Shown piece after piece: positions 11,812 to 58,560 of a DNA stretch of 58,560 nucleotides. Source of the stretch: a virus; IMG/VR virus record IMGVR_UViG_3300009170_000007, positions 1-58,560 of that record, one strand, 5' to 3'. How positions within the stretch are numbered: position 1 is the first letter of the stretch; each line of letters starts with the position of its first letter. The notes below the pieces were generated by a model that worked only from the letters and a program-made list of their open reading frames with translations, searched no databases and was not told where the DNA came from. Position numbers and translations under genes: made by a program.

Positions 11812-11832
11812 CTTATAATGGGTATGTCACTA
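11812..11832 (+). promoter_or_regulatory. Promoter element repeated exactly at 57817
   Basis: A 21-base block containing TATAAT (11814-11819) followed by GGGTATGTCACTA. The identical block is present at 57817-57837. No good -35 hexamer is found at 17 bases in either copy, so the downstream bases may be part of the recognised site. It lies 16 bases before ATG 11849. Confidence 0.6.
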
Positions 11833-11848: not shown

Positions 11849-12319
11849 ATGAGCGACTACAAAATCTTCACCGACCACAACCGTCACACCTATCTGCAGT
11901 ACAGGGACAACGGGAAAACCCGGAACTATATCTCTATGGTCGATGGAACTATCGACTGCATACAGCTATCCAAGACTGATTTCATCCGACTGAAGCCTTA
12001 CATCAAATCTACCACAGAACACTTTGCTAAAACCTACCTTAACAGCCACTTGACTATTTCCCGAGCGGCCAGAGCCGTTTTACGTGGGGTTTTAGGGGAT
12101 TCCGGAGCCGAAAATGAGGCCAGTGGAGACCCGCGTTTTAGCGGGGGTACAGTGGGAATACAGGAAATTGCGCTAGAAAATAACTGGGAGCCCTCCCACT
12201 GCCGAAGGTTCCTCAGAAAGACCCTGGATAAGCCCGGGGGTCGATGGGTATTTAGCCCGGAAGAAGCTCAGAGGATAACCGAGATGCTTAAGGAGTACTT
12301 TACTCGTGAGTCAGTTTGA
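11849..12319 (+). CDS. Hypothetical protein with possible C-terminal winged helix
   Basis: A 156-residue protein of unknown function, first gene after the promoter at 11812. Residues 1-60 look like a small beta-rich domain (YLQYRDNGKTRNYISMVDG). Residues 100-156 (IQEIALENNWEPSHCRRFLRKTL, GGRWVFSPEEAQRITEML) look like a winged-helix or HTH domain. It overlaps the helicase gene by 14 bases, so it may work with it. Confidence 0.6.
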   Translation: MSDYKIFTDHNRHTYLQYRDNGKTRNYISMVDGTIDCIQLSKTDFIRLKPYIKSTTEHFAKTYLNSHLTISRAARAVLRGVLGDSGAENEASGDPRFSGGTVGIQEIALENNWEPSHCRRFLRKTLDKPGGRWVFSPEEAQRITEMLKEYFTRESV

Positions 12320-36820: not shown

Positions 36821-39800
36821 CTAGTAATGCAACAAAAGAAACTCAATATCATCTTCTTCATCGAGTTCGGATTGTGCTTCATCCCGAATACGTTGATATT
36901 GTACCCCATCGTTCGAGATTTGTAAATAAGTCTCGTTGATCTTAGCGTAAATCTTTTCCCACGGATCATCAGGGGAGACTATATGTGGAGTGTAGGTTCG
37001 TGCGGAACGTACAGGAACTGCCGTAACGGGCTTCTGAGGCTTTACCTTACGAGTCTTGGGTGTTGTTATAACCGGTGGAGGTTCACTTACTACTTTGCGT
37101 TTTGCGTCTTCCTCTAGAGCTTTTGCCTGGAGCTCTTCAACGAACTCACGCGGTAATTTAGTCTGTACTGGCTTCCAAACATTGCTGCGAGCCAGACGAC
37201 TAACCCCGGATTGTCCTTGACTAGCCGCGTCACCGCTATTGATGATTATAGCGGAACCACCAGTCAGGTTGTACTCACCGCCAGCAGTTTGAAGATACTT
37301 ACTCTTCAGGAGAGTGGAATTTGCTCCGATCAAGTCATAACTACCACCCAGAGCAATGAGGGTGTAATTTACTACCTTAGTGATTATCGCTTGACTACCG
37401 GTAACGGAGTATGCACCGCCAGAACTTTGAATGTACTTGCTTCTCAGCAAGGTGGCACTAGCGCCGGTCAAGGTGTAGCTGCCACCAGAAGCTTGAATCC
37501 GCTTAGACCGCAGGAGGGTAGCTGAACTACCTGTCAGGGAGTATGAACCCCCCAGAGCCGTGAGCGTATAGTTCGCTGCTAACGAGGTCCAGGTTAGAAC
37601 TGCGCTCGAGCCTGTCAGGGTGTAGCTGCCGCCCTGAGCGACTACTAACTTAGAACGGAGAAGCGTGGCTGATGCACCAGTTAAGGAATAAGCCCCACCT
37701 TGAGCAGTGAGTACTCTTCCCTTGACTAGGTTCGCGCTAGCACCAGTTAGTGTGTATGAACCACCCGTAGAGACAATACGCTTAGAACGTAAGAGGTTAG
37801 CTGTCCCACCGGTGAGATTGTACGCGCCTCCGGTTGAGACGATACGCTTGCTCTTCAGTAGGTTCGCACTTGCCCCGGTCAGGGCATAAGAACCACCAGT
37901 TGATACAATACGCTTGGAGCGGAGCAGATTCGCAGAGCCACCTGTTAAGCTGTAGGTTCCACCAGTTGCTGTCATGTTTCTATTTCTAGATACAACAGCA
38001 CTTGATCCGGTTACTGAGTACGATCCACCTAGTAGAGTGAACGTATAGTTGACAGAACCTGCGGTCCATGTAAGTACAGCACTGGAACCAGTAAGAGTGT
38101 ACGCTCCTCCTGATGCGGCTACGTACTTGCTTCTCAGCAGGTTTGCTGTTCCACCTGACAGAGAATAAGAGCCACCAGAAGCAGTGAGTTTTCTGTTCCT
38201 AGATAAGTTAGCAGAGCCACCAGTAAGCGTGTATGCTCCACCGGTTGCGGTTAGTTTCCTATTTCTAGATACTACAGCACTGGCACCTGTTAGACTATAT
38301 GAGCCCCCGCTAGACGTTAGTTTTCTATTTCTAGATACTACCGCTGAGGAACCAGTCAGGGCATAGCTACCACCATTAGCAGTTAGTGTATAAGTAGATG
38401 CCGGGGCTGCTACCTTGAATGCTATGACGTGTGTGGTTCTTGGGAAGCTGTTTGTACCATCGGTGAATGTCGCCGTTTGCGCGCCGGTTGCCGAGACATT
38501 CTTGTACTCTGAGGTCAGCATTTGCCGGCTGCCGATCAGGGCGTACCCTGTTCCGGCATTCAGCGTCGTGCTTTCTGCTCCTGACGATCCTGTGTTCTGA
38601 GTCAGACCGATGACAAAATCATTGGCGTTTGTTGTGGCAGCGGTAGCTGATGAAGAAATTCCATCAGTAGCATTACCAGGTGCTGCCTGATACTGATTTG
38701 CCGCTCTATCCTCTGCTGAGGTTGTGGCGAGTCCTGCGACCTCCACCAAGAGCAATCGGCGAAAAGGAACAGCCGTACTGAACGTGGCGGTTACTGTGTG
38801 GCTTCCCGATCCAGCATTAAGCAAGTAGAAGGCATTTGAATTCTGCGAATTACCTGTGTCACGGCATCTACCGTCCGCCGACTGCGTATAGGATGTACCG
38901 TCGCTAACCGTAACTGTTACTGTAGAACCACCGCCGTCGCCAACAAAGGCGATGATCGCGCTGCCTGCGGCTACACCCGTGATCGTTGTGGCTATGGTTG
39001 TGGTACTTGTTGCGTTGTCTCCACTACCCTCATAGACGCTTTGGAGGACTGTGCCACCTGCTGCTGCCTTTGTCAGAATGGCACTAGAACCAGTCAGTGA
39101 GTATGAACCGCCTGATGCTACTAGTTTTTTACTTCTCAGTAAAGATGCAGTACCACCAGTTACAGAATAAGAACCGCCCTGTGCAGTTAGTGAGTAGTTA
39201 TTAACCGCAGGTCGTAGAGCAATCGTATAGGCCGCCCAAGAATCCACCGCATTAGTTGTGCCGCCAGTGTATTGTGCCGGATCGACCGCACCGCTTGTCC
39301 AGCCTGACCAGTAGCCGGAACCAACCATAGCATCGTTGGTATCTGCGGTGAAGCCCGTCAGGAAGTTGGTCGTGAAGTTGGCCGGCGCAGTGTAGGCCGC
39401 ACCGGTGGCCGCTGCGCCACCACCACAGATGACCACCCAAGCGCCGGCTGTCGTCGGGGTGATCGAGCCGGGATTGGGCCTGCCTGTTGCCGTGCCAGTA
39501 GCAGAGACCGCAGCCACATCGAGCGGGTTGGTTGGATCAACCCCACGAAACACCTGAATCGTGTAACGCTGGGCGTCCGCCACATTGCCCGTCGAGGGCA
39601 GCGTGAAGGTGGTATTCGGCGTGGCCGGCATGAACTTCCGCGACACGTTGAGACTTGTGTCGTAGGTCGTCGTGTTCGGGTTGAGTTGCCCGAGCGCCGT
39701 CCAAGTGGCGGGGGCGGTGATCGCCTGTGCGGGATTGCGGCCCTGTGAGCCGACAATCGCCGTGATGATGACGAGATCGCCCGCCGCTGGGACAGAGGCT

Positions 39801-39889
39801 AAGCCGCCCGTCAGGGCATAGGTAACGGTCGTGGTGGAATTTGCCCCAGCACGACCAGCGACCTGCCCACCGACGTATTGAATAGCCAT
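36821..39889 (-). CDS. Large repetitive fibre/adhesin-like protein
   Basis: A 1022-residue protein. The N-terminal 230 residues are a beta domain (TAVVDPTN-type strands, Trp-rich). Residues about 265-490 form a second beta domain. Around and after it are 19 copies of a repeat starting GGSY(S/T)LTG, usually 22 residues long with a Lys/Arg cluster (LLRSKR, VSRNRK). The last 140 residues are charged (EELQAKALEEDAKRKV, SELDEEDDIEFLL). The Gly/Ser/Thr repeat suggests an extended beta shaft, as in fibres or adhesins. It lies between portal and head genes, an unusual place for a tail fibre, so it may decorate the head. Confidence 0.7.
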   Translation of the reverse strand: MAIQYVGGQVAGRAGANSTTTVTYALTGGLASVPAAGDLVIITAIVGSQGRNPAQAITAPATWTALGQLNPNTTTYDTSLNVSRKFMPATPNTTFTLPSTGNVADAQRYTIQVFRGVDPTNPLDVAAVSATGTATGRPNPGSITPTTAGAWVVICGGGAAATGAAYTAPANFTTNFLTGFTADTNDAMVGSGYWSGWTSGAVDPAQYTGGTTNAVDSWAAYTIALRPAVNNYSLTAQGGSYSVTGGTASLLRSKKLVASGGSYSLTGSSAILTKAAAGGTVLQSVYEGSGDNATSTTTIATTITGVAAGSAIIAFVGDGGGSTVTVTVSDGTSYTQSADGRCRDTGNSQNSNAFYLLNAGSGSHTVTATFSTAVPFRRLLLVEVAGLATTSAEDRAANQYQAAPGNATDGISSSATAATTNANDFVIGLTQNTGSSGAESTTLNAGTGYALIGSRQMLTSEYKNVSATGAQTATFTDGTNSFPRTTHVIAFKVAAPASTYTLTANGGSYALTGSSAVVSRNRKLTSSGGSYSLTGASAVVSRNRKLTATGGAYTLTGGSANLSRNRKLTASGGSYSLSGGTANLLRSKYVAASGGAYTLTGSSAVLTWTAGSVNYTFTLLGGSYSVTGSSAVVSRNRNMTATGGTYSLTGGSANLLRSKRIVSTGGSYALTGASANLLKSKRIVSTGGAYNLTGGTANLLRSKRIVSTGGSYTLTGASANLVKGRVLTAQGGAYSLTGASATLLRSKLVVAQGGSYTLTGSSAVLTWTSLAANYTLTALGGSYSLTGSSATLLRSKRIQASGGSYTLTGASATLLRSKYIQSSGGAYSVTGSQAIITKVVNYTLIALGGSYDLIGANSTLLKSKYLQTAGGEYNLTGGSAIIINSGDAASQGQSGVSRLARSNVWKPVQTKLPREFVEELQAKALEEDAKRKVVSEPPPVITTPKTRKVKPQKPVTAVPVRSARTYTPHIVSPDDPWEKIYAKINETYLQISNDGVQYQRIRDEAQSELDEEDDIEFLLLHY
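37235..39195 (-). repeat. Tandem 66-bp repeat region coding for GGSYSLTG units
   Basis: Seventeen units lie between about 37235 and 38400 and two more near 39080-39190, each about 66 bases, with variable residues after the GG and in the basic cluster. Longer units carry a Trp insertion (LTWT...NYT). Units such as RSKRIVSTGG are almost identical, which points to recent duplication and possible length variation. Confidence 0.75.
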
Positions 39890-49398: not shown

Positions 49399-50880
49399 CT
49401 ATACGGCGTATGGATTTCGGTGCGAGTGAGTAGTAGTGGCGTCGTCTGGGTCTACGTAGTCGTCTTCTTCCTCGGGCTCGTCGATGATGAGGAATCCTTG
49501 ATCTTTAGCGTACTGCATAGCTTGACTAAAGGTGTCGACTAGGTCGTCGTGATCAACCAAGGGGAAGGTACACACCTGCTCAACCAGGGGATCTACCCAA
49601 TTGCGCGGGTGTCCCGGATTCTTCTCTGATTCGGGTAGGAAGACCAGCCCATGACAGGGGAGATGAGAGACCGCGTGGAGACGTTCTACCTTGTCTGCGC
49701 GGCCAGGGTTGTATGCCCGGACTGGGATGACTGTTTGAAGCTCTTGACGCAGGGAGATTCCCGAGCCCTTATCTTCGATCAGAACGACGTCGGCTTTGCG
49801 GGCGTCACCCTCTGGACCATAGTAGGAGGTATCATACTCCTTCTTTACTCGCTGTCTTAGCTCTGGGAATCCTAGATGCTCGGTCCAGGCGTCGAGAAGG
49901 AGGATTCCGTAGCGGATATGGCTTGGGAGGGACGAGAAGTGAGTACGGATCGCGGGGGTGATCGCGAAGATGCCCCAGGTGGAGGACGCGGAGGGATCGG
50001 CTTCTTGCGTCTTGCGGTCTAGGGAGCGCTCGGTGAACGCCGTGTCATAGGACTGGATGATCAGCTCAAACTTCGGCGTAGGTAGAGTGTTGGGATAGAG
50101 ACGGAACCAGCCTTCTTGAATGATCCCTGACTCGCGGGGGTCGATCAACTCGGCGTGAAGCTCTTGTCGACCTAGGCGGGTGCCTTCGTACTGCGCGACT
50201 TGCCTGAAGAAGGGCTTGGCCAGGTTGGCTTTGTTCTCATAGGTAGAGCCAGTGGACACGACTACGGTGTCAGGCTCTTTCTTGGATTGCGCTATGAGCT
50301 TGCGAAGTAGGGGGATAGGCTTCGGTGTGGTGGATACAAAGACCTGAGGCAGGGTGCCCAAGCGTAGGCCGAACATGAGCTGATCCCAAACCTCTTGTGG
50401 ATAGGCCCAGGCGGCGATTTCATCGCACCAAGCGGCTGAGCACTGTGGTCCTCTAAGTCGTTCGGGCTCTTCAGCTGAGAACAGAAGAGCGGTGGCCCCG
50501 TTGGGAAAGGTCAATCGCCGCTTAGAAGGCTCGTACGTGGGCTTCTTGGAGGGGTGAGCGACGGAGAGGATGCCCGACTCACCGTCTACGCAAACGTCTC
50601 GGGTATCTGCGGTGGTCGGAGCGACGATGTGAATGCGTCGATGACCTTGCTCTACCCAGCGGAGGACTTGCTCGGCTCCAGCGCGGGTTTTGCCCCAACC
50701 TCGACCGGCAAGTGCAAGCCAGATCTCCCACGTCGTGGAGCGGTGAAGGGAGGAGTCAGGGTGGTCAGGGGGGAGCTGAGAGTGGCGAGCCCAGAGGGAC
50801 CAGTCGTGAATTAAGGCTGTGATCTCGTCGGGGGAAAGGTGCTCAATGTCCGCTAGGGTGAGTTCGCGGTCATTTCCCAC
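49399..50880 (-). CDS. terL: Terminase large subunit
   Basis: A 493-residue packaging motor. The ATPase has Walker A GRGWGKTRA near residue 60, Walker B-like CSAAWCDEIAAW and a coupling motif STTPKP. The C-terminal RNase H-like nuclease is visible as QSYDTAF, LIEDKGSGI and HDDLVDTFSQAM (Asp ligands). GTG 50880 overlaps the small subunit by 11 bases. It binds the portal encoded 8 kb downstream, separated by the polyvalent-type cassette. Confidence 0.93.
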   Translation of the reverse strand: MGNDRELTLADIEHLSPDEITALIHDWSLWARHSQLPPDHPDSSLHRSTTWEIWLALAGRGWGKTRAGAEQVLRWVEQGHRRIHIVAPTTADTRDVCVDGESGILSVAHPSKKPTYEPSKRRLTFPNGATALLFSAEEPERLRGPQCSAAWCDEIAAWAYPQEVWDQLMFGLRLGTLPQVFVSTTPKPIPLLRKLIAQSKKEPDTVVVSTGSTYENKANLAKPFFRQVAQYEGTRLGRQELHAELIDPRESGIIQEGWFRLYPNTLPTPKFELIIQSYDTAFTERSLDRKTQEADPSASSTWGIFAITPAIRTHFSSLPSHIRYGILLLDAWTEHLGFPELRQRVKKEYDTSYYGPEGDARKADVVLIEDKGSGISLRQELQTVIPVRAYNPGRADKVERLHAVSHLPCHGLVFLPESEKNPGHPRNWVDPLVEQVCTFPLVDHDDLVDTFSQAMQYAKDQGFLIIDEPEEEDDYVDPDDATTTHSHRNPYAV

Positions 50881-51247
50881 GGTTCAGGAGTCTCAGAAGC
50901 TTCTGGCGGGCGTCTTGATGAGCGGCTTCTTGCTCTTCTTTGGACAGAAGGGAGGAAGTGGTGGTGGATTTGGACCAGCGGGCGCGCATCTCCATCCAGG
51001 CTTGGGTCATTTGGGGGAAGTCACCCGAGGTGGCGAGATCGTGGAAGACTTTGGCTACGCGGAGGTTGGCCTCCTCTTCCGCGTGCTGGATCTCCTTCTC
51101 ATAGTACCGCTGGAGATCTGCGGAGGAGAGGTTCAAGTGTGCGGAGACATACTCGAGGGAAGCGCCCATACCGATGAGGACCTCGATTTGAGTCGAGTCT
51201 CGCTTATTGGGGTGCATCGGGACTGATGGGGTAGGCGCAGGGTTCAT
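50870..51247 (-). CDS. terS: Terminase small subunit
   Basis: A 125-residue protein. The N-terminal half (TQIEVLIGMGASLEYVSAHLNLSSADLQRYY) is a helix-turn-helix for recognising the packaging site, followed by a charged coiled coil for oligomer formation. It is directly upstream of and overlaps terL. Confidence 0.78.
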   Translation of the reverse strand: MNPAPTPSVPMHPNKRDSTQIEVLIGMGASLEYVSAHLNLSSADLQRYYEKEIQHAEEEANLRVAKVFHDLATSGDFPQMTQAWMEMRARWSKSTTTSSLLSKEEQEAAHQDARQKLLRLLNRGK

Positions 51248-51695: not shown

Positions 51696-51724
51696 CTGAC
51701 AGGAGGAGGGCAATACCTTATGAT
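51696..51724 (+). promoter_or_regulatory. Sigma70-like promoter for the rightward 51773 operon
   Basis: CTGACA (51696-51701), 17-base spacer, TATGAT (51719-51724). The next bases (GGGTTTGTCGGC) match those after the -10 at 8133. AGGAGG inside the spacer is not a ribosome site; CCGGAG precedes ATG 51773. Confidence 0.75.
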
Positions 51725-51772
51725 GGGTTTGTCGGCAGGGAAAGGTCCCTGCCACTAACCGGAGATACTGCC

Positions 51773-52261
51773 ATGACCAAGCCCAAGAAGACCCTGCCCG
51801 CCAACCTGTGCGTGGCTTTCAAAAACCAGACCGGCGAACACACCGGTACCATCCTCGAGGACCGCGGCCTGTTCTGGAAGGTCCGCGACGACGCTGACGA
51901 GGAGTACCAGGTGAAGAAGACCAGCTGCACTGAGTGCGACCCGCCCACCCCGGTGGCTGGCACGCTGAGCGCCTCCCTGGCCTCCCTGATTAACGCTGAT
52001 CCCGCCCCCGCTGCGCCGGTGGAGAAGAAGGCCAAGGTCGAGAAGGACCCGGACCTCGTGACCCTGGCCGAACTGTGCGTCGAGCTCAGGATCGTCGGCC
52101 GGATCGCCCGCCGCCGCCTGCGCAAGGCCCTGGGTCAGGTTGGCACTGGCTCCCGCTGGGAGTGGAAGAAGGCCTCGGAGGAACTGGCCAAGGTCAGGTC
52201 CCTGCTGACCGTCGCCCCGCCTGTCGCCACCGCCCCCGAGGCTGACGCTGACGACGAGTAA
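51773..52261 (+). CDS. Two-domain protein: SH3-like domain plus winged helix shared with 13661
   Basis: A 162-residue protein. Residues 10-45 (NLCVAFKNQTGEHTGTILED, GLFWKVRDDADEEYQVKK) look like a small SH3/Tudor-like barrel. After an Ala/Pro linker, residues 95-140 (LVTLAELCVELRIVGRIARR, SRWEW) match the winged-helix-like domain of the 81-residue protein at 13661, including the acidic tail. It is high in GC. Function unknown; DNA or RNAP binding is a guess. Confidence 0.68.
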   Translation: MTKPKKTLPANLCVAFKNQTGEHTGTILEDRGLFWKVRDDADEEYQVKKTSCTECDPPTPVAGTLSASLASLINADPAPAAPVEKKAKVEKDPDLVTLAELCVELRIVGRIARRRLRKALGQVGTGSRWEWKKASEELAKVRSLLTVAPPVATAPEADADDE

Positions 52262-52270
52262 TCCAGGCAA

Positions 52271-52292
52271 GGTGGGGTAACCAATCCCCACC
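52271..52292 (+). terminator. Perfect hairpin after the 51773 gene
   Basis: GGTGGGG and CCCCACC form a perfect seven-pair stem with an eight-base loop. No T-run follows, so it is more likely an mRNA end-stabiliser or pausing site than a full terminator. Confidence 0.4.
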
Positions 52293-52351
52293 TCCGTCCG
52301 GCGCTACCAGCGTCGCTGAAGAGCCTCAGCAAAGGCGAAACGGAGTATGTG

Positions 52352-53053
52352 ATGACTAACAATCGTGCGATCGAAAAGATCCAGAAGCTGCTGGCGCTGG
52401 CCAGTGACCCGGGCGCTGCGCCCCAAGAGGCGGAGACGGCAGCCCGTCAGGCGGCGTACCTGATGGCCCAGCATGACCTGGACCTGGGCGACCTGGCCGC
52501 AGTGGAGCTGGCGGCGCAGTGGGATATGACCACTCAGTCGGCTCAAGGCTGCAGACCGGGAAAGCGTAACGCGGTGGAGGTCCCGCCCTGGATAGGGATC
52601 ATCGCTTGGGGCGTCAAGATATTCACCCGGACCCGAGCTTCGAACGGCCTCGGCACTGTTACCTTCAAGGGACCCAGGGAGGACGTGGTCCTCGCCGTCT
52701 GGCTCCACGAATACCTCCTGCACCAGGCGTACGCAGCCAGTAAGGGCCTGGGCCTGGGTGAGGCTAACAGGTTCCGTAACGGATTCGCTAGCGCCCTCCA
52801 GGGGCGCCTGAAGGCTCTGGCCAAGGCCAGGGACACTGCGGACCAGGAGCTGACCGCCGGCAAGAGTGGCACTTCCTTGGTTCGGGTACAGGATGCTCGG
52901 AAGCAAGAGATGGACAAGTTCTTCGGTGACGAGGCCAGGGGACACACCTCCAAGGTCGGCCAGTCGATCGACGGTTACTTGGCGGGCCAGAAGGCAGCCA
53001 TCCCCACGAACCGCCCCCTGACCGGGTCTAGCAATCGTCTGCTGGGGAGCTAA
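52352..53053 (+). CDS. DUF2786 domain protein
   Basis: A 233-residue protein; ATG 52352 with GGAG six bases upstream. The N-terminus (AIEKIQKLLALASDPGA, ETAARQAAYLMAQHDLDL) is the DUF2786 helical domain. The rest (LHEYLLHQAYAASKGLG, RNGFASALQGRLKALAK) is its usual C-terminal companion domain. The family is common in phages and is of unknown activity. It is GC-rich like its neighbours. Confidence 0.8.
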   Translation: MTNNRAIEKIQKLLALASDPGAAPQEAETAARQAAYLMAQHDLDLGDLAAVELAAQWDMTTQSAQGCRPGKRNAVEVPPWIGIIAWGVKIFTRTRASNGLGTVTFKGPREDVVLAVWLHEYLLHQAYAASKGLGLGEANRFRNGFASALQGRLKALAKARDTADQELTAGKSGTSLVRVQDARKQEMDKFFGDEARGHTSKVGQSIDGYLAGQKAAIPTNRPLTGSSNRLLGS

Positions 53054-53055
53054 TC

Positions 53056-53349
53056 ATGGACTACTCTGAGATCCTGGAGAGGGCGCAAGCCCTCGCCGAA
53101 GAGGCCCTGGCCACTGGCACTGAGTGGCCTGCGGAAAGGATGAACCTGGATAAGCGTATCGGCAAGCTGATCGTAGGGGAGACCTGGATCGCTGCACGCC
53201 GGGACACCATTAAGCGCCTCCGTTACTACGGTGGGTTCGAGTATATTGATGAAGAGTATCAGCTCGCCCTGGGCGACATGGTGTTCTACAGCCGGGATGA
53301 CGATCGGGTGGAGGCTGCCCTCATGAATCTTGAGTTCAACGAGGATTGA
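53056..53349 (+). CDS. Hypothetical protein
   Basis: A 97-residue acidic protein two bases after the DUF2786 gene. It has a helical start (SEILERAQALAEEAL) and a Tyr/Phe-rich centre (LRYYGGFEYIDEEYQLALGD). No known motif. Function unknown. Confidence 0.6.
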   Translation: MDYSEILERAQALAEEALATGTEWPAERMNLDKRIGKLIVGETWIAARRDTIKRLRYYGGFEYIDEEYQLALGDMVFYSRDDDRVEAALMNLEFNED

Positions 53350-53353
53350 TGCC

Positions 53354-53734
53354 ATGAAGACACTGATGCTGGCCGGCAAGGCCACACTAACCATCAAGAG
53401 TAAGAAGACAGGAGTACGCTACACGTACCGGTTCAATCGCCCTCCTGGGGATGATCCCGCACGCTGTGTCTGGGTCCGCGTCCTGACCGGACCTGACAGC
53501 TACAGGTATCTGGGCGTGCTTTGGCCTGACACCATGAAGTATCACCCCAAGGGTCAAGAGCCTAGCAGTCGAGCCATAGCTTGGGTGATCCAGACCCTGA
53601 AGGGCAGAGGGGAGGGAGCTCTCCTGGAGGATGTCGAGGTATGGCATGAAGGTAAGTGCTGCCGCTGCGGTCGCCAGCTGACCACGCCTGAGTCCATAGC
53701 CAGAGGATTGGGTCCGGAGTGCGCCTTAATGTAA
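53354..53734 (+). CDS. DUF6011-like zinc-knuckle protein
   Basis: A 126-residue protein from ATG 53354 (GAGGA upstream). The C-terminus CCRCGRQLTTPESIARGLGP then ECA is the four-cysteine zinc motif of DUF6011, common in phage proteins. The N-terminal part (ATLTIKSKKTGVRYTYRF, CVWVRVLTGPDSYRYLGVL) is a small beta domain. The last gene of the operon, followed by a strong terminator. Function unknown. Confidence 0.75.
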   Translation: MKTLMLAGKATLTIKSKKTGVRYTYRFNRPPGDDPARCVWVRVLTGPDSYRYLGVLWPDTMKYHPKGQEPSSRAIAWVIQTLKGRGEGALLEDVEVWHEGKCCRCGRQLTTPESIARGLGPECALM

Positions 53735-53752
53735 TCAAGCCTTGAAACAAGG

Positions 53753-53777
53753 TAGGCCCTACGGGGCCTATATTTTT
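53753..53777 (+). terminator. Intrinsic terminator ending the 51773 operon
   Basis: TAGGCCC and GGGCCTA form a seven-pair stem with a TACG tetraloop, followed by TATTTTT. A textbook rho-independent terminator. Confidence 0.85.
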
Positions 53778-54178
53778 GTGGGTACATATACCCACCACCC
53801 CACTAGTACGCGGGTTACTGAACGGCGCCCACTAACCAATTTGGTGCCATCTGGGGGCGCTGTTTCCAGTGGTTCCGAGTGGGAATTATTCCACTATGAT
53901 TTTTCTCACCAGTATTGAATAGCTAAGTTACTGATATATATACTTATTTTATTATCTTGAAGAGAAAAAGAGAAAAATAGGTAAAATATACAAGTTTCTT
54001 GCTGTATTTTTAACCCTATGATGATTGGGTATAAGTTATACCCCGCGCGCCCCACTGGGGGGATATTAAAATAAAAAAAAATATGTCTCCCCATCTATCG
54101 CTTTATAATCAGTGACTTACGCTAGTCTGGTGAGAAAAAAATTTCTCCCCAAGATAACCTTTGACCCATCATTGGAAA
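53778..54178. other. AT-rich non-coding region with palindromes, left part of the probable origin
   Basis: No gene. The part 53890-54110 is strikingly AT-rich and could be an unwinding region. Inverted repeats are GTGGGTA-CATA-TACCCAC (53778-53795) and GGGTATAA-G-TTATACCC (54027-54043). Weak TTTCTCCCCAA-type copies of the iteron occur near 54141. It lies between a strong terminator and the iterons. Confidence 0.55.
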
Positions 54179-54232
54179 AGTTATCCCCAACAGAAGAAAA
54201 GTTATCCCCAATCAAGACCGAGTTATCCCCAA
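54179..54232 (+). repeat. Three iterons with exact 21-bp period, probable replication origin
   Basis: AGTTATCCCCAA occurs at 54179-54190, 54200-54211 and 54221-54232, exactly 21 bases apart, about two helical turns. The core TTATCCCCA differs by one base from the DnaA box TTATCCACA. It borders an AT-rich region and lies 190 bases from the primase-helicase gene. Repeats in phase next to AT-rich DNA are typical of origins. Confidence 0.6.
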
Positions 54233-54306
54233 CCATTCTCGAACTTTTACCCATTTGGTATATTTTTCCCGCCCCCACTTTAGGACATTGGGATATCATC
54301 TCCCCT

Positions 54307-54319
54307 GGTATAATATACC
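54307..54319 (+). promoter_or_regulatory. -10 element inside a palindrome
   Basis: GGTATAATATACC is a perfect palindrome around a central A and contains TATAAT (54309-54314). No clear -35 at 17 bases (TTGGGA at 15). It may be an operator-controlled start for the short frame at 54346 or for an origin transcript. Confidence 0.45.
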
Positions 54320-54345
54320 CACACACCGCCACCCGGGAGAACGAA

Positions 54346-54423
54346 ATGAACCACGCATATCCGGGTGATCGTCTACCTGACCGATCCAGCCCGACCCGAC
54401 CCGACTTCGAGGTAGAAGACTAA
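54346..54423 (+). CDS. Possible 25-residue peptide
   Basis: ATG 54346 has GGGAG seven bases upstream and follows the -10 at 54309. The peptide is Asp/Pro/Arg-rich and ends FEVED. Its stop overlaps the end of the convergent primase gene by four bases. It may be real or a chance frame. Confidence 0.3.
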   Translation: MNHAYPGDRLPDRSSPTRPDFEVED

Positions 54424-56501
54424 CTACGCATTCCCAGCTTCCGGCGTACCCTCCGGAGCCAGCCAGCGTCGAATACAGCGATCTCTTCCTTACCCCCACC
54501 CGAGGTGCGCTTCACCCTACGTATAGCCCCAGGTAGCAAGAGGTCCTCCAGCTGTCGCTTGAAGTGGAGTCTCCGCTCACACCGAGCTCGACCACTCCAA
54601 GACACATATTCATCATACAACTTATTCACCCCCACATGGCCTTCCTCCCAATCAGAACCCCAATCCAGGAGGAACTGCGTCACACCAGCCACACCCTGCA
54701 CCATCTGGGATTCACGGCCATCTGTCCACGGGATCACCCCTGGCTTCCACCCCGACAGATCCATTCGGCGCAGGTCATACAACATCCGACCAAGTCCACC
54801 ACCCTCCACGCTCATTTGAGCCACCACCCTATCCCAGTAATCATGGTCTCCCACTCGACCACCCAATACCTTGGTGATGAAATACCGTCGATCACCCGCA
54901 TCCACCGGAACCACCCAGTCATGATTAGAGCAGACCCCCAACCCGATGCAATTGGCGATCGAGAATGAATCCCGACCTTTCATCTCGACCATCTTAGTCT
55001 TCTCCGTTATGAGCGTCTTCAGGACACCCTCACGAACCTTGTCTCCACCCCATGTCGCCTCATCCGCCAACACCAAACACTTGTTAGCCAGATGATAGTT
55101 GAACTTGCCAGCCAAGTGATCACCCTGGGTGACGGTCATGTAATGATCACCAAACAACTCGCCCAGCAGACGGAAGACCAAAGATTTCCCACACCCTGGC
55201 ACACCCACTAGCACTATGGCCGAACCTGGCACCTCCCATGGCCTCTGTACCCTATGCGCCATCCACCCCAATAGGTAATCCCGAAGGTCCTCTCTCTGGT
55301 GGCAGACATTGATCCAGAGATGTTCAAGAAACAGCTCCCACCCAACCCCAAAATCCCCTTCCTCTTCTTCAACTGCCCAGCCGCGCCACAGGTTGTACTC
55401 CCCACCCCCACTCTCAAGCCCAGGCTTAAACACCACACCACCAGGAAACTCACGACGATCAGGGTGACCCAGCCAGAACTTGTCAGCCGTCACTTCCCGC
55501 TCACCCGAAGTCACTCTTCTATTCGCCATAAGCAACGAAAAATCCGAGCGGGTCAGGAATGCCACTCCACCTCCACGCTGCTCCTGCAATACGCAGACTG
55601 AGCCGCCGTTCCTAATCACAGCATACTCGGCATTAAGCTGCTCTATCAGATCGCCAGCACCTAACTCAAGCCACTCGACCAAGGATTCGAAGCCCCGAAG
55701 TCCAAAGCCCGAACCCCCACTAACGCATAGCTCACGAAGCCGCTTCAGCCCAGGGACTCGACCTCCGCTCTCTAACTCTTCACGAAGCCTCTCACTCTTG
55801 AGACGCTTCTCACCTTCTTCATCCCCTGCCTCAATCAGTATCCCACGCAGGAACGAGTCTACATCCTCATCTTCCCAGCCACTGCGAACCATTGAACCCA
55901 CTAGGCAGACGGACATCTCATCTCTAGCCCCGCCATGCCAATCTCGTAACAACAGCGAAGCCGCAGCTAACCAGCGGACGGACCTCTCAAGGTTCTCAGG
56001 ATCTATCCCAGAGATCTCTTCCTCACCCATCCACTCTATAGGTTCGCCGGTGTCAGGGTGCACGCTACCAGGTCCCATCGTCTGTCCCGAAGCACGCAGC
56101 TCCAGCAACACCGACTTCTCATTCCGCTTGTCCCAACACATACGCTTACTGCTCTTCACTCCAGACCGGTAGATCATGTGAGTTACGGCACCGCCTCGAC
56201 CAAACCGAGCAGTAGTAGGCAGATAGTACTTGGCCAGAACGCGGGACTCCTCAGAGTCCAGATCTATATCAACGATGTCCCCGAATCCCCTACCTAACCG
56301 GATGCCGAAGTTGCTATCCCCACCCCCATGGCTCTCACTCCATTCCCAGATCTTCTCTTGGGCTTCTTCCTCAGTGATCTTCTGCCAAGCCCCATATCCT
56401 GGAGACTTCCCATGTAGTAGGGGTATAACACTTTTGATGCCTCGGTCATATAACTTCTGGACCTTAGGGTGAGTCTTATGTAGCCGGGTTACCGCACTCA
56501 T
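54420..56501 (-). CDS. Primase-helicase (prim-pol plus D5/SF3-like helicase)
   Basis: A 693-residue protein. The first 220 residues have the archaeo-eukaryotic prim-pol pattern: GDIVDIDLD (metal-binding Asp), VTHMIYR, and LRASGQTMGPGSVHPDTGEP. The C-terminal half is a SF3/DUF5906-type helicase: VGVPGCGKSLVFRLLGELF (Walker A near residue 430), LVLADEATWGG (Walker B) and SNHDWVVPVDAGDRRYFI (sensor). It would prime and unwind at the nearby iterons. Its start overlaps the HTH gene by ATGA. Confidence 0.88.
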   Translation of the reverse strand: MSAVTRLHKTHPKVQKLYDRGIKSVIPLLHGKSPGYGAWQKITEEEAQEKIWEWSESHGGGDSNFGIRLGRGFGDIVDIDLDSEESRVLAKYYLPTTARFGRGGAVTHMIYRSGVKSSKRMCWDKRNEKSVLLELRASGQTMGPGSVHPDTGEPIEWMGEEEISGIDPENLERSVRWLAAASLLLRDWHGGARDEMSVCLVGSMVRSGWEDEDVDSFLRGILIEAGDEEGEKRLKSERLREELESGGRVPGLKRLRELCVSGGSGFGLRGFESLVEWLELGAGDLIEQLNAEYAVIRNGGSVCVLQEQRGGGVAFLTRSDFSLLMANRRVTSGEREVTADKFWLGHPDRREFPGGVVFKPGLESGGGEYNLWRGWAVEEEEGDFGVGWELFLEHLWINVCHQREDLRDYLLGWMAHRVQRPWEVPGSAIVLVGVPGCGKSLVFRLLGELFGDHYMTVTQGDHLAGKFNYHLANKCLVLADEATWGGDKVREGVLKTLITEKTKMVEMKGRDSFSIANCIGLGVCSNHDWVVPVDAGDRRYFITKVLGGRVGDHDYWDRVVAQMSVEGGGLGRMLYDLRRMDLSGWKPGVIPWTDGRESQMVQGVAGVTQFLLDWGSDWEEGHVGVNKLYDEYVSWSGRARCERRLHFKRQLEDLLLPGAIRRVKRTSGGGKEEIAVFDAGWLRRVRRKLGMRS

Positions 56502-56665
56502 GCTGCCTCCCTCTCAGCCAACTTCTCAGAGAGCTTCTTTACATCCTTGTCAAATAGCACCCAGCCGAACCCTACCTTCTGACCCAGTCCCTCGCGACGC
56601 ACCCACTTATATAGCCGCTTCTCAGGGATGCCCAGTCGCTTACTCACTTCGCCAATAGAATACAT
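56498..56665 (-). CDS. MerR/excisionase-like HTH protein
   Basis: A 55-residue protein. YSIGEVSKRLGIPEKRLYKWVRREGL is a MerR-like winged helix-turn-helix, followed by a strand (GFGWVLFDKDV) and a charged helix. AGGAGG lies before the ATG. It is translationally coupled to the primase and may regulate the operon or bind the iterons. No integrase is present, so an excisionase role is unlikely. Confidence 0.75.
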   Translation of the reverse strand: MYSIGEVSKRLGIPEKRLYKWVRREGLGQKVGFGWVLFDKDVKKLSEKLAEREAA

Positions 56666-56681
56666 TTTTCCTCCTAGAAAG

Positions 56682-56711
56682 TTTACTGCTAGATACCACT
56701 CGGGTTATAAT
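56682..56711 (+). promoter_or_regulatory. Promoter for the dNMP kinase operon
   Basis: TTTACT (56682-56687), an 18-base spacer and TATAAT (56706-56711), about 60 bases before ATG 56771. If the genome is circular it could drive the rightward operon across the window joint to the ligase. Confidence 0.6.
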
Positions 56712-56770
56712 ACCACTTTACCCCCGAGCTAGAAACATTCGCTCCCACTAAAATTTTCCCAGGTAACCCC

Positions 56771-57262
56771 ATGATCATAGTTGAAGGTCCAGACAATACC
56801 GGAAAGACCACACTTATCCAACAGCTGCAGGATATTTTTCATCTGCCATCACTTAGGGCGGGCTTCCATCCACAGAACCCTAAAGACATCCATCAATATC
56901 ACTACTGGGCGGTCACCTCCCCACGTCAGTTGATTTTAGACCGACACCCCGCCGTCTCGGACTTCATCTATACACCCATCCTGAGACCCACCGAACCTGA
57001 GCTCTCCTCATTAGACCTCATCATTCGGATGTTGGACCGTCACTACACTATTTTCGCCCTCCCTCCATTCAACCAGGTTGAAAAGAGTTATGACGAACGA
57101 CCTCAACTTAAGGGGACGAAAGAAAACCTCCGACGCATTTATCAAGCCTATGAGAAACTGTTGAATGACTTTGAACCCAACTTCCTGTATGACTATACCA
57201 AACCCAATGCCTTTACGGCTCTCACCACCCACCTAACCCACTACCTGGCGCGCTCATCATGA
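56771..57262 (+). CDS. Thymidylate kinase-like deoxynucleoside monophosphate kinase
   Basis: A 163-residue P-loop kinase. The start IIVEGPDNTGKTTLIQQL is the thymidylate-kinase Walker A. The strand LILDRHPAVSDFIY supplies the DR(H/Y) motif, and the tail is helical. It is shorter than cellular dTMP kinases (about 205). The substrate could be dTMP or a modified dCMP, as for T4 gp1 kinase. It overlaps the pyrophosphatase gene by four bases, which ties the two functions. Confidence 0.82.
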   Translation: MIIVEGPDNTGKTTLIQQLQDIFHLPSLRAGFHPQNPKDIHQYHYWAVTSPRQLILDRHPAVSDFIYTPILRPTEPELSSLDLIIRMLDRHYTIFALPPFNQVEKSYDERPQLKGTKENLRRIYQAYEKLLNDFEPNFLYDYTKPNAFTALTTHLTHYLARSS

Positions 57263-57813
57263 TCCAAGAAACCCTTCCCCGAATCTTCGAATTTCAGTCT
57301 CAGCTCATCGAGACACTCCGTCCCATCGAAATTGAACTGGGATATACCCCACCCCAAATTCCGTTAGATTTCACTCTCAGAGCCCACCAGGACTGGTTCC
57401 GGCTCATGTCATGGTACCTGACGGAAGAGATCATCGAGGCGAAAAGTGCTAACCACACCCTGCTTCCCGAGGAAATGGCTGATGCCCTTCACTTCGCAGT
57501 GGAACTGTGTATCCTCGCCGACATCCCACCTCATCAGGTGTTAGAACGTCTGGCCCTGGAGCAATTCGAGCCTTACTCCACCCCGCAAACCCTGGACGAC
57601 GTCATCTTCCATCTGGGACTAGCTAACAACCTGCTCAAGGCTAAGCACTGGAAGAAAAACCCCAAGCCCACACCACTGAGCAACTTCCGGTATCATCTGG
57701 CTTCTTCCTTGATCTCTTTACTTCAGTGCTTCTTCCAGGCTCAGATTGACCCCGCCGAAGAGTACTTCAAGAAGCATCAAATAAATAATGACAGAGCCCA
57801 ATCCGGGTACTAA
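57259..57813 (+). CDS. All-alpha NTP pyrophosphatase (MazG/dUTPase-2/dCTPase type)
   Basis: A 184-residue all-helical protein. The metal-binding pattern EEIIEA (EExxE) followed about 18 residues later by EEMADAL (ExxD) is that of the MazG-like and dimeric dUTPase/dCTPase group. In phages this group hydrolyses dUTP or dCTP; T4 gp56 is the dCTPase that keeps dC out of DNA. The C-terminal 60 residues have no known motif. Position between the kinase and the TS-fold genes supports a nucleotide-pool role. Confidence 0.7.
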   Translation: MIQETLPRIFEFQSQLIETLRPIEIELGYTPPQIPLDFTLRAHQDWFRLMSWYLTEEIIEAKSANHTLLPEEMADALHFAVELCILADIPPHQVLERLALEQFEPYSTPQTLDDVIFHLGLANNLLKAKHWKKNPKPTPLSNFRYHLASSLISLLQCFFQAQIDPAEEYFKKHQINNDRAQSGY

Positions 57814-57816
57814 TCC

Positions 57817-57837
57817 CTTATAATGGGTATGTCACTA
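57817..57837 (+). promoter_or_regulatory. Promoter element identical to that at 11812
   Basis: A 21-base block with TATAAT at 57819-57824, identical to 11812-11832. It lies between the pyrophosphatase stop and ATG 57860. No good -35. It would start transcription of the operon that runs over the window joint. Confidence 0.6.
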
Positions 57838-57859
57838 ACCAAAACCGGAGTCCGATATC

Positions 57860-58096
57860 ATGCCCTGCATCCAGTACCTCACCGCCAAAGTTAAGCATCA
57901 CGACCAAGAGTTCAATGCGGTTATCTCCGAACACTCCAGCAACACCTTCATCTTCGGATTCAGTCAACTCCCGGTCACCACTTCGACTCACATGAGCTTC
58001 GCTTCCCTGAAGGCGATCGCCGACATGTTGAACCTCGCCGTCGCTGTTCACGAGCAGCGCATCGCCGCCGACATGGAGCATCAAGACAATGACTAA
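57860..58096 (+). CDS. Small hypothetical protein
   Basis: A 78-residue protein, first gene after the promoter at 57817. It has a small alpha/beta pattern (IQYLTAKVKHHDQEFNAVIS, THMSFASLKAIADMLNLAV) and an acidic His-rich end. It overlaps the next gene. Function unknown. Confidence 0.6.
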   Translation: MPCIQYLTAKVKHHDQEFNAVISEHSSNTFIFGFSQLPVTTSTHMSFASLKAIADMLNLAVAVHEQRIAADMEHQDND

Positions 58097-58268
58097 TCGT
58101 CAATTCGCAGCGGCACACGACCGCTACCTCGAGCCGGAAGATGACCGGCAGGACGACTCCCCCGAGGACGACGAAATGGACCTCGCCGACATAGCGCGCC
58201 AGAAGCGCTTGGACCGTGAGGATTGGGAAGCGGAAACGCTTCGGCAGAAACAGGAGTGCGACGAATGA
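58089..58268 (+). CDS. Small acidic hypothetical protein
   Basis: A 59-residue protein from ATG 58089, overlapping both neighbours by four to eight bases. It is highly charged (RYLEPEDDRQDDSPEDDEMD, then RLDREDWEAETLRQKQE). Probably helical. Function unknown. Confidence 0.6.
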   Translation: MTNRQFAAAHDRYLEPEDDRQDDSPEDDEMDLADIARQKRLDREDWEAETLRQKQECDE

Positions 58269-58560
58269 ACAACGAATGGCAAGACCTGCCCACTGTGCAG
58301 GACGTGGCCCGCGCCCAATACGAAGGGTGGGAGATTCAGTACCGAGTAAAAGGCACTGAGTTTGGTTGGTGGCCAGGGAATAATTGGTATCGTGACTATA
58401 TATTCCGTGGTCGTCCCGCGCAGTCGAAGAAGGTCACAGTCACCAGCGAGTGCTGGCGGCACCCTGAGCACGGAGGACTGTTTTGGCGGTCTCACGGAAA
58501 TACAACTTGCAAGCCGGAGGCATATGTACGCTTCCCCGCCGGAGACATTACAGGATATGT
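58265..58560 (+). CDS. Small hypothetical protein, paralogue of the gene at 305, cut by window end
   Basis: 98 codons are visible from ATG 58265 (ATGA overlap). MNNEWQDLP, WEI, a FRGRP block, ECWRHPEH and PAGDIT match the gene at 305 in order and spacing. If circular, it continues for twelve more codons to the stop at 32-34, giving 110 residues. Function unknown. Confidence 0.72.
   Translation, partial: MNNEWQDLPTVQDVARAQYEGWEIQYRVKGTEFGWWPGNNWYRDYIFRGRPAQSKKVTVTSECWRHPEHGGLFWRSHGNTTCKPEAYVRFPAGDITGY

Follow-up and report, generated by a model that had tools for sequence, protein, structure and literature searches.

We propose that the non-coding region at positions 53735-54419 of this phage genome is a replication origin, which is probable when every form of an origin is counted together, while the specific version in which host DnaA reads its repeats stands at about an even chance. 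Throughout, the window is the whole 58,560-nucleotide stretch that was analysed, an IMG/VR virus record. An origin is the best supported reading because phased DnaA-type repeats, the weakest duplex of the window and a primase-helicase gene 187 nt away occur together, because relatives keep an AT-rich region with inverted arms and because the layout follows a plan known from SaPIs and SCCmec. The initial annotation, made from the sequence alone, had already called the region a probable origin; that claim stands on these grounds, short of proof, with the sign of the GC skew, the lack of the boxes in two close relatives and the terminase-side position of similar viral arrays pointing the other way.

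A phased repeat array and its surroundings

Three exact copies of AGTTATCCCCAA lie on the plus strand (Table 1) and nowhere else in the 58,560-base record. Their start-to-start steps are 21 and 21 bp, as initially described, so the copies are helically phased. Nowhere else in the window does an exact 12-mer recur three times at equal steps, and the absence of any such triple from 60 order-2 Markov genomes (0/60) ruled out a chance origin. The core of each copy, TTATCCCCA, is one base off the DnaA box TTATCCACA, again as had been claimed, with a C at position 7 that departs from the consensus TTWTNCACA; with up to one mismatch to that consensus allowed, the three cores make a cluster of at least three DnaA boxes at the array. 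A possible degenerate fourth box follows them. Canonical TTWTNCACA boxes are absent near the array and occur in the window only at 2073, 22684 and 25138, and no DnaA-trio (a CTA-type run of four) was found beside the boxes in 54101-54330.

Table 1 Coordinates of the array, the AT-rich core and the neighbouring genes in the window
Feature	Position	Strand	Remarks
DUF2786 protein gene	52349..53053	+	
DUF6011 protein gene	53330..53734	+	Ends the left-hand converging operon
Terminator-like hairpin with T tail	53752..53771	+	After the DUF6011 gene; consensus match only
AT-rich core	53881..54110		Holds the GC minimum and the weakest duplex of the window; candidate unwinding element
Outer inverted repeat, arm	53900..53912	-	Perfect over 13 bp; minus strand reads CTGGTGAGAAAAA
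Left arm	53924..53944	-	AGTATATATATCAGTAACTTA; 21/21 identical to L053 9003-9023
Right arm	54099..54119	+	CGCTTTATAATCAGTGACTTA; separated by 154 nt from the left arm, to which it is inverted
Outer inverted repeat, partner arm	54127..54139	+	CTGGTGAGAAAAA
Box 1	54179..54190	+	AGTTATCCCCAA, exact repeat; core TTATCCCCA, candidate DnaA-box variant
Box 2	54200..54211	+	AGTTATCCCCAA, exact repeat
Box 3	54221..54232	+	AGTTATCCCCAA, exact repeat
Possible degenerate fourth box	54245..54253	+	TTTTACCCA, pattern TTWTNCMCA; 22 bp after box 3
Primase-helicase gene	54420..56501	-	Prim-Pol domain (17-164), NrS-1-type SF3 helicase (DUF5906), predicted winged-helix-like C-terminal fold (606-688)
HTH_17/MerR-like protein gene	56498..56665	-	55 aa; overlaps primase start; counterparts in L053 and L054

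Read as a coding repeat, each 21-bp step would span seven codons, and the array has three open frames. This reading was rejected because coding scores are about zero or negative, because the 12 bp stay identical through codon boundaries and third positions although the codons around them vary, and because both close relatives, L053 and L054, lack the ORF. Searches with blastn of phages and plasmids gave no convincing direct homologues of the array, and an RNA element was rejected because Rfam gave no match in 53300-58560.

The array lies inside the non-coding region where a plus-strand and a minus-strand operon converge, and directly downstream of the primase-helicase gene, whose stop codon is 187 nt away; the convergence, the closeness of this gene and the HTH gene at 56498 were all correctly noted at the outset. 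The neighbours of the array are the genes for the primase-helicase, the HTH_17 protein, the DUF6011 protein and the DUF2786 protein, and a Rep-family initiator gene adjoining the repeats is not among them. The AT-rich DNA reported beside the repeats was borne out as well: the 200-bp stretch of lowest GC in the window (0.31) begins at 53881 and its 100-bp stretch of lowest duplex stability at 53913 (-107 kcal/mol; the next -118), the two lying about 170 bp from the array. From computed duplex stability, this weak duplex adjoining the boxes is a candidate unwinding element.

Other features of the window were recorded in passing. A GC-rich block (about 0.55-0.69, window 0.51) occupies 51700-53700, between the terminase genes and the array. 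An identical 21-bp sequence, CTTATAATGGGTATGTCACTA, stands at 11812-11832 and 57817-57837, each time in front of a gene (at 11849 and at 57860); a 76% copy lies at 51717, and the sequence looks like a repeated promoter. Finally, many degenerate repeats, often 66 bp apart, fill 37247-39112 inside a 1022-aa minus-strand ORF (36821-39889) that probably encodes a repetitive tail or fibre protein.

The variant box in bacterial and viral genomes

The pattern of AGTTATCCCCAA followed by AGTTATCC within 44 bp was scanned in one genome per bacterial and archaeal species, yielding 92 loci. Additional canonical TTWTCCACA boxes lay within 300 bp at 55 of the 80 bacterial loci inspected, versus 2 of 80 for control patterns, these counts being inflated by related species in the set. 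With one exception, pair spacings in the bacterial loci were 18-24, 31-37 or 41-43 bp, with peaks near 21, 32 and 42 bp, and they were phased at 10.5 bp (R 0.61; null maximum 0.33). In IMG/VR, the variants AGTTATCC[C/G/T]CA within 44 bp of a canonical AGTTATCCACA occurred at 54:3:3, or 38:3:2 for C:G:T at position 7 once identical arrays were removed, whereas the background ratio of TTATCC[C/G/T]CA, taken from 1.0 Mb of loci not picked for boxes, was 3:4:7 and had no such bias; with non-independent species in both the viral and the bacterial sets, all these figures give a direction, not an exact significance.

On these statistics, TTATCCCCA behaves as a genuine DnaA-box variant that is tied to DnaA-box clusters. 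In the literature searched, we found no paper that names it as a DnaA box. Intergenic arrays of the same box, 21-bp spacing included, also occur in the unrelated viral contigs L012 and L013.

The array resembles bacterial oriC regions and DnaA-box clusters in that its boxes are one base from TTATCCACA, keep helical phase and adjoin the weakest duplex, and the same variant box is present inside bacterial clusters. It differs from oriC in lacking a canonical box, a DnaA-trio and a nearby dnaA or dnaN, and in having just three or four boxes in a single orientation. Moreover, the DnaA of E. coli favours boxes separated by 2-3 bp (PMC11317965). This spacing preference, together with the missing canonical box, the missing trio and the C at position 7, counts against an origin read by DnaA.

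Relatives, known systems and competing readings

A primase search with the single sequence returned no relatives, an alignment-based search returned the IMG/VR contigs L053 and L054, and a further search added no more close ones. The primases of these two are 57% (L053) and 53% (L054) identical to that of the window, and the gene order is the same, with an AT-rich non-coding gap at the same place. The inverted arms around the AT-rich core are kept too, with 148 and 149 nt between them, compared with 154 nt in the window. Boxes of the AGTTATCCCCAA type are absent from both. As a separate observation, the ATCAGTRACTTA arms at 53924-53944 and 54099-54119 have a polarity opposite to that of both relatives, with their AT-rich ends facing inward in the window and outward in L053 and L054. 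The missing boxes and the opposite polarity both weigh against the DnaA-origin reading.

The primase-helicase, whose Pfam match is DUF5906, hit profiles of the NrS-1 structures 6k9e/6k9c (hmmsearch, PDB profile, E 3e-21), and the best Foldseek match of its structural model (mean pLDDT 74) was the NrS-1 CTR (E 2e-12). The same model matched the SaPI5 primase-helicase more weakly (E about 4e-7), a likeness by fold only. The phage also has its own family-A polymerase.

The closest precedents for the layout are SaPIs (Rep/PriRep) and SCCmec (Cch2), in which short repeats likewise lie directly downstream of a D5/SF3-type helicase gene, with or without a fused AEP primase. SaPI Rep helicases recognise the iterons directly downstream of their own gene through the C-terminal domain, and Cch2 binds a sequence downstream of its own gene (PMC7581432). 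The window departs from both in that its repeats are DnaA-box variants set 21 bp apart, and in that it is a tailed phage with a family-A polymerase and a helicase nearest that of NrS-1, not SaPI. The deep-sea phage NrS-1 shares the fusion of a Prim-Pol domain with a ring-type SF3 helicase, and its polymerase recognises TTTGGTTA, proposed by the authors as a possible origin (PMC8718748, PMC7102993). This motif is absent in and beside the region, and its two copies in 58.6 kb (44292 and 57836, versus 1.5 expected) are at chance level, on which ground an NrS-1 priming site was rejected as the explanation. In Pseudomonas phage YuA and its kin (Mesyanzhinovviridae), the primase-helicase is 35% identical over the helicase half; unlike in the window, a further gene follows the primase gene of YuA by about 45 bp, without tandem repeats being found there. 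Iteron plasmid origins of the RepA/TrfA/RepE type also combine direct repeats of about 21 bp with AT-rich DNA, but beside its array the window has a primase-helicase gene and no Rep initiator of those families.

Across about 90 primase-helicase loci, no DnaA-box cluster was found except that of the window, so this gene family does not share the DnaA feature as a rule. Of 59 loci with the same type of primase-helicase, 7 have at least four copies of an 8-mer in the 1 kb or so that lies 3' of the primase gene, versus 1.8 expected (0/500 permutations), and tandem units of 8 or 9 bp, some of low complexity, are enriched there as well (7 loci versus 1.0 and 8 versus 1.9 expected). Each phage has repeats of its own sequence, and an AT-rich core is often flanked by them in both orientations; examples are TTACTGGCT in L060, TGTAACA in L061, AAGTATGAC in L058, GTGACAGTA in L063, AGTAGGAAT in L080 and AGGTAG in L089. 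Nine relatives (L057, L058, L060, L061, L063, L080, L089, L102 and L129) carry such short repeats, often of 8-9 bp and each different, and their clusters are probable origins with fast-changing iterons. Since tandem repeats downstream of the primase are essentially absent from YuA and other named phages, the pattern holds only for a subset of relatives.

The repeats of the window might accordingly belong to an origin of another kind, as iterons for the C-terminal domain of the phage's own primase-helicase in the manner of SaPI Rep and SCCmec Cch2, their likeness to DnaA boxes being coincidental. The array stands 187 nt 3' of that gene, relatives (L060, L061, L058, L063, L080 and L089) have different repeats at the same place, and the modelled protein matches the NrS-1 CTR and the SaPI5 primase-helicase and has a predicted winged-helix-like C-terminus. 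We nevertheless consider this unlikely: by our own estimate far fewer than 1% of arbitrary 12-bp iterons would come as close as one mismatch to a DnaA box, the repeat equals the exact variant found in DnaA clusters, the periods in the relatives are mostly 8-9 bp and not 21, and L053 and L054 lack the boxes despite similar primases.

A more doubtful proposition is that the repeats are operators through which a regulator, either the 55-aa HTH protein or DnaA, controls a plus-strand promoter at about 54310 (TATAAT). Downstream of the array, at a distance of 80-130 bp, come this TATAAT and an SD-like GGGAG, followed by a 25-aa ORF (54348-54423), L053 has a small gene in the same orientation after the same region, and phased repeats fit an activator. 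However, a promoter scan gave no more sites than shuffled sequence, the small ORF is without counterpart in L054, and it is the AT-rich core and its arms that are conserved, not the promoter region.

Arrays in other viral contigs raised the further idea of a packaging signal (pac or cos-proximal), with boxes recognised by the terminase or marking a genome end. Most arrays of the viral set are found at 56-143 bp from terS, at 0.4-2.1 kb from terL or both, and not next to replication genes, a position that also tells against an origin read by DnaA. We regard packaging as very improbable here, with the presumed terS (50870-51247) and terL of the window 2.9-3.3 kb away and other genes in between, and with a DnaA-box variant common to unrelated phages not being expected of terminase sites. 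At some 3 kb from its terminase genes, the array does not closely follow the terminase-adjacent pattern. In their own right, the arrays of L229-L284, L044 and L027 are intergenic, mix AGTTATCCACA with AGTTATCCCCA and stand just upstream of terS/terL in most loci. They span at least 12 apparent families, and DnaA-type boxes at the packaging end were unexpected; these arrays may serve as origin, in promoter control or in packaging.

Finally, the GC skew was examined, which the initial annotation had put forward as a check of the origin. By the usual bacterial rule, the cumulative minimum marks the origin and the maximum the terminus. In the window, the cumulative skew has its maximum in this region, at about 54.0 kb, with a local minimum near 58.05 kb. 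The check therefore went against an origin under this rule, and the terminus-like sign is the main evidence contrary to the DnaA-origin reading. At the gap, the skew turns from slightly positive to about -0.3 in the window, L053 and L054, and it is negative across genes of both orientations. The segment concerned (54100-58050) is 4 kb long, has a skew of about -0.3 whatever the gene direction, which in the window shows at almost every codon position, and starts sharply at the AT-rich gap, this left edge being kept in L053 and L054. With the skew limited to about 4 kb, local strand exposure may be its source and the sign rule is perhaps inapplicable. A replication terminus or fork-convergence point between the two operons would suit the cumulative maximum, the convergence of genes and transcription and the conserved skew boundary, but is hardly credible, given that the skew is local and not genome-wide and that a terminus would not normally have a weak duplex with DnaA-type boxes next to a primase gene.

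A proposed initiation scheme and its implications

Under the reading we prefer, an origin with boxes read by host DnaA, the three copies of AGTTATCCCCAA two helical turns apart would place the bound proteins on one face of the DNA. Host DnaA would bind the boxes cooperatively and help to melt the AT-rich core between the conserved inverted arms. The phage primase-helicase would then load on the opened DNA and prime for the family-A polymerase. From this arrangement we infer DnaA binding, melting, loading and the start of replication at this place.

More tentatively, we suggest that phages with primase-helicases of the NrS-1/YuA type may keep the origin directly 3' of the primase-helicase gene while swapping its recognition repeats freely, and that recognition may here have passed to host DnaA via the variant box, giving a hybrid origin that joins conserved phage arms to host-read boxes. 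Repeats directly downstream of a primase-helicase gene were already known from SaPIs and SCCmec, as were DnaA boxes; what is new is that plan in a tailed phage with a variant box, with repeats that change freely among relatives.

Among the tailed phages that are known only from metagenomes, most have unmapped replication origins. For these, the arrangement offers a testable rule, namely to search the DNA immediately following the primase-helicase gene for a repeat-bearing AT-rich gap. It also brings forward data that TTATCCCCA regularly accompanies canonical DnaA boxes in phage as well as bacterial genomes. If host DnaA does read the boxes, replication of this phage would be tied to the initiation control of its host, despite the phage having its own primase, helicase and polymerase.
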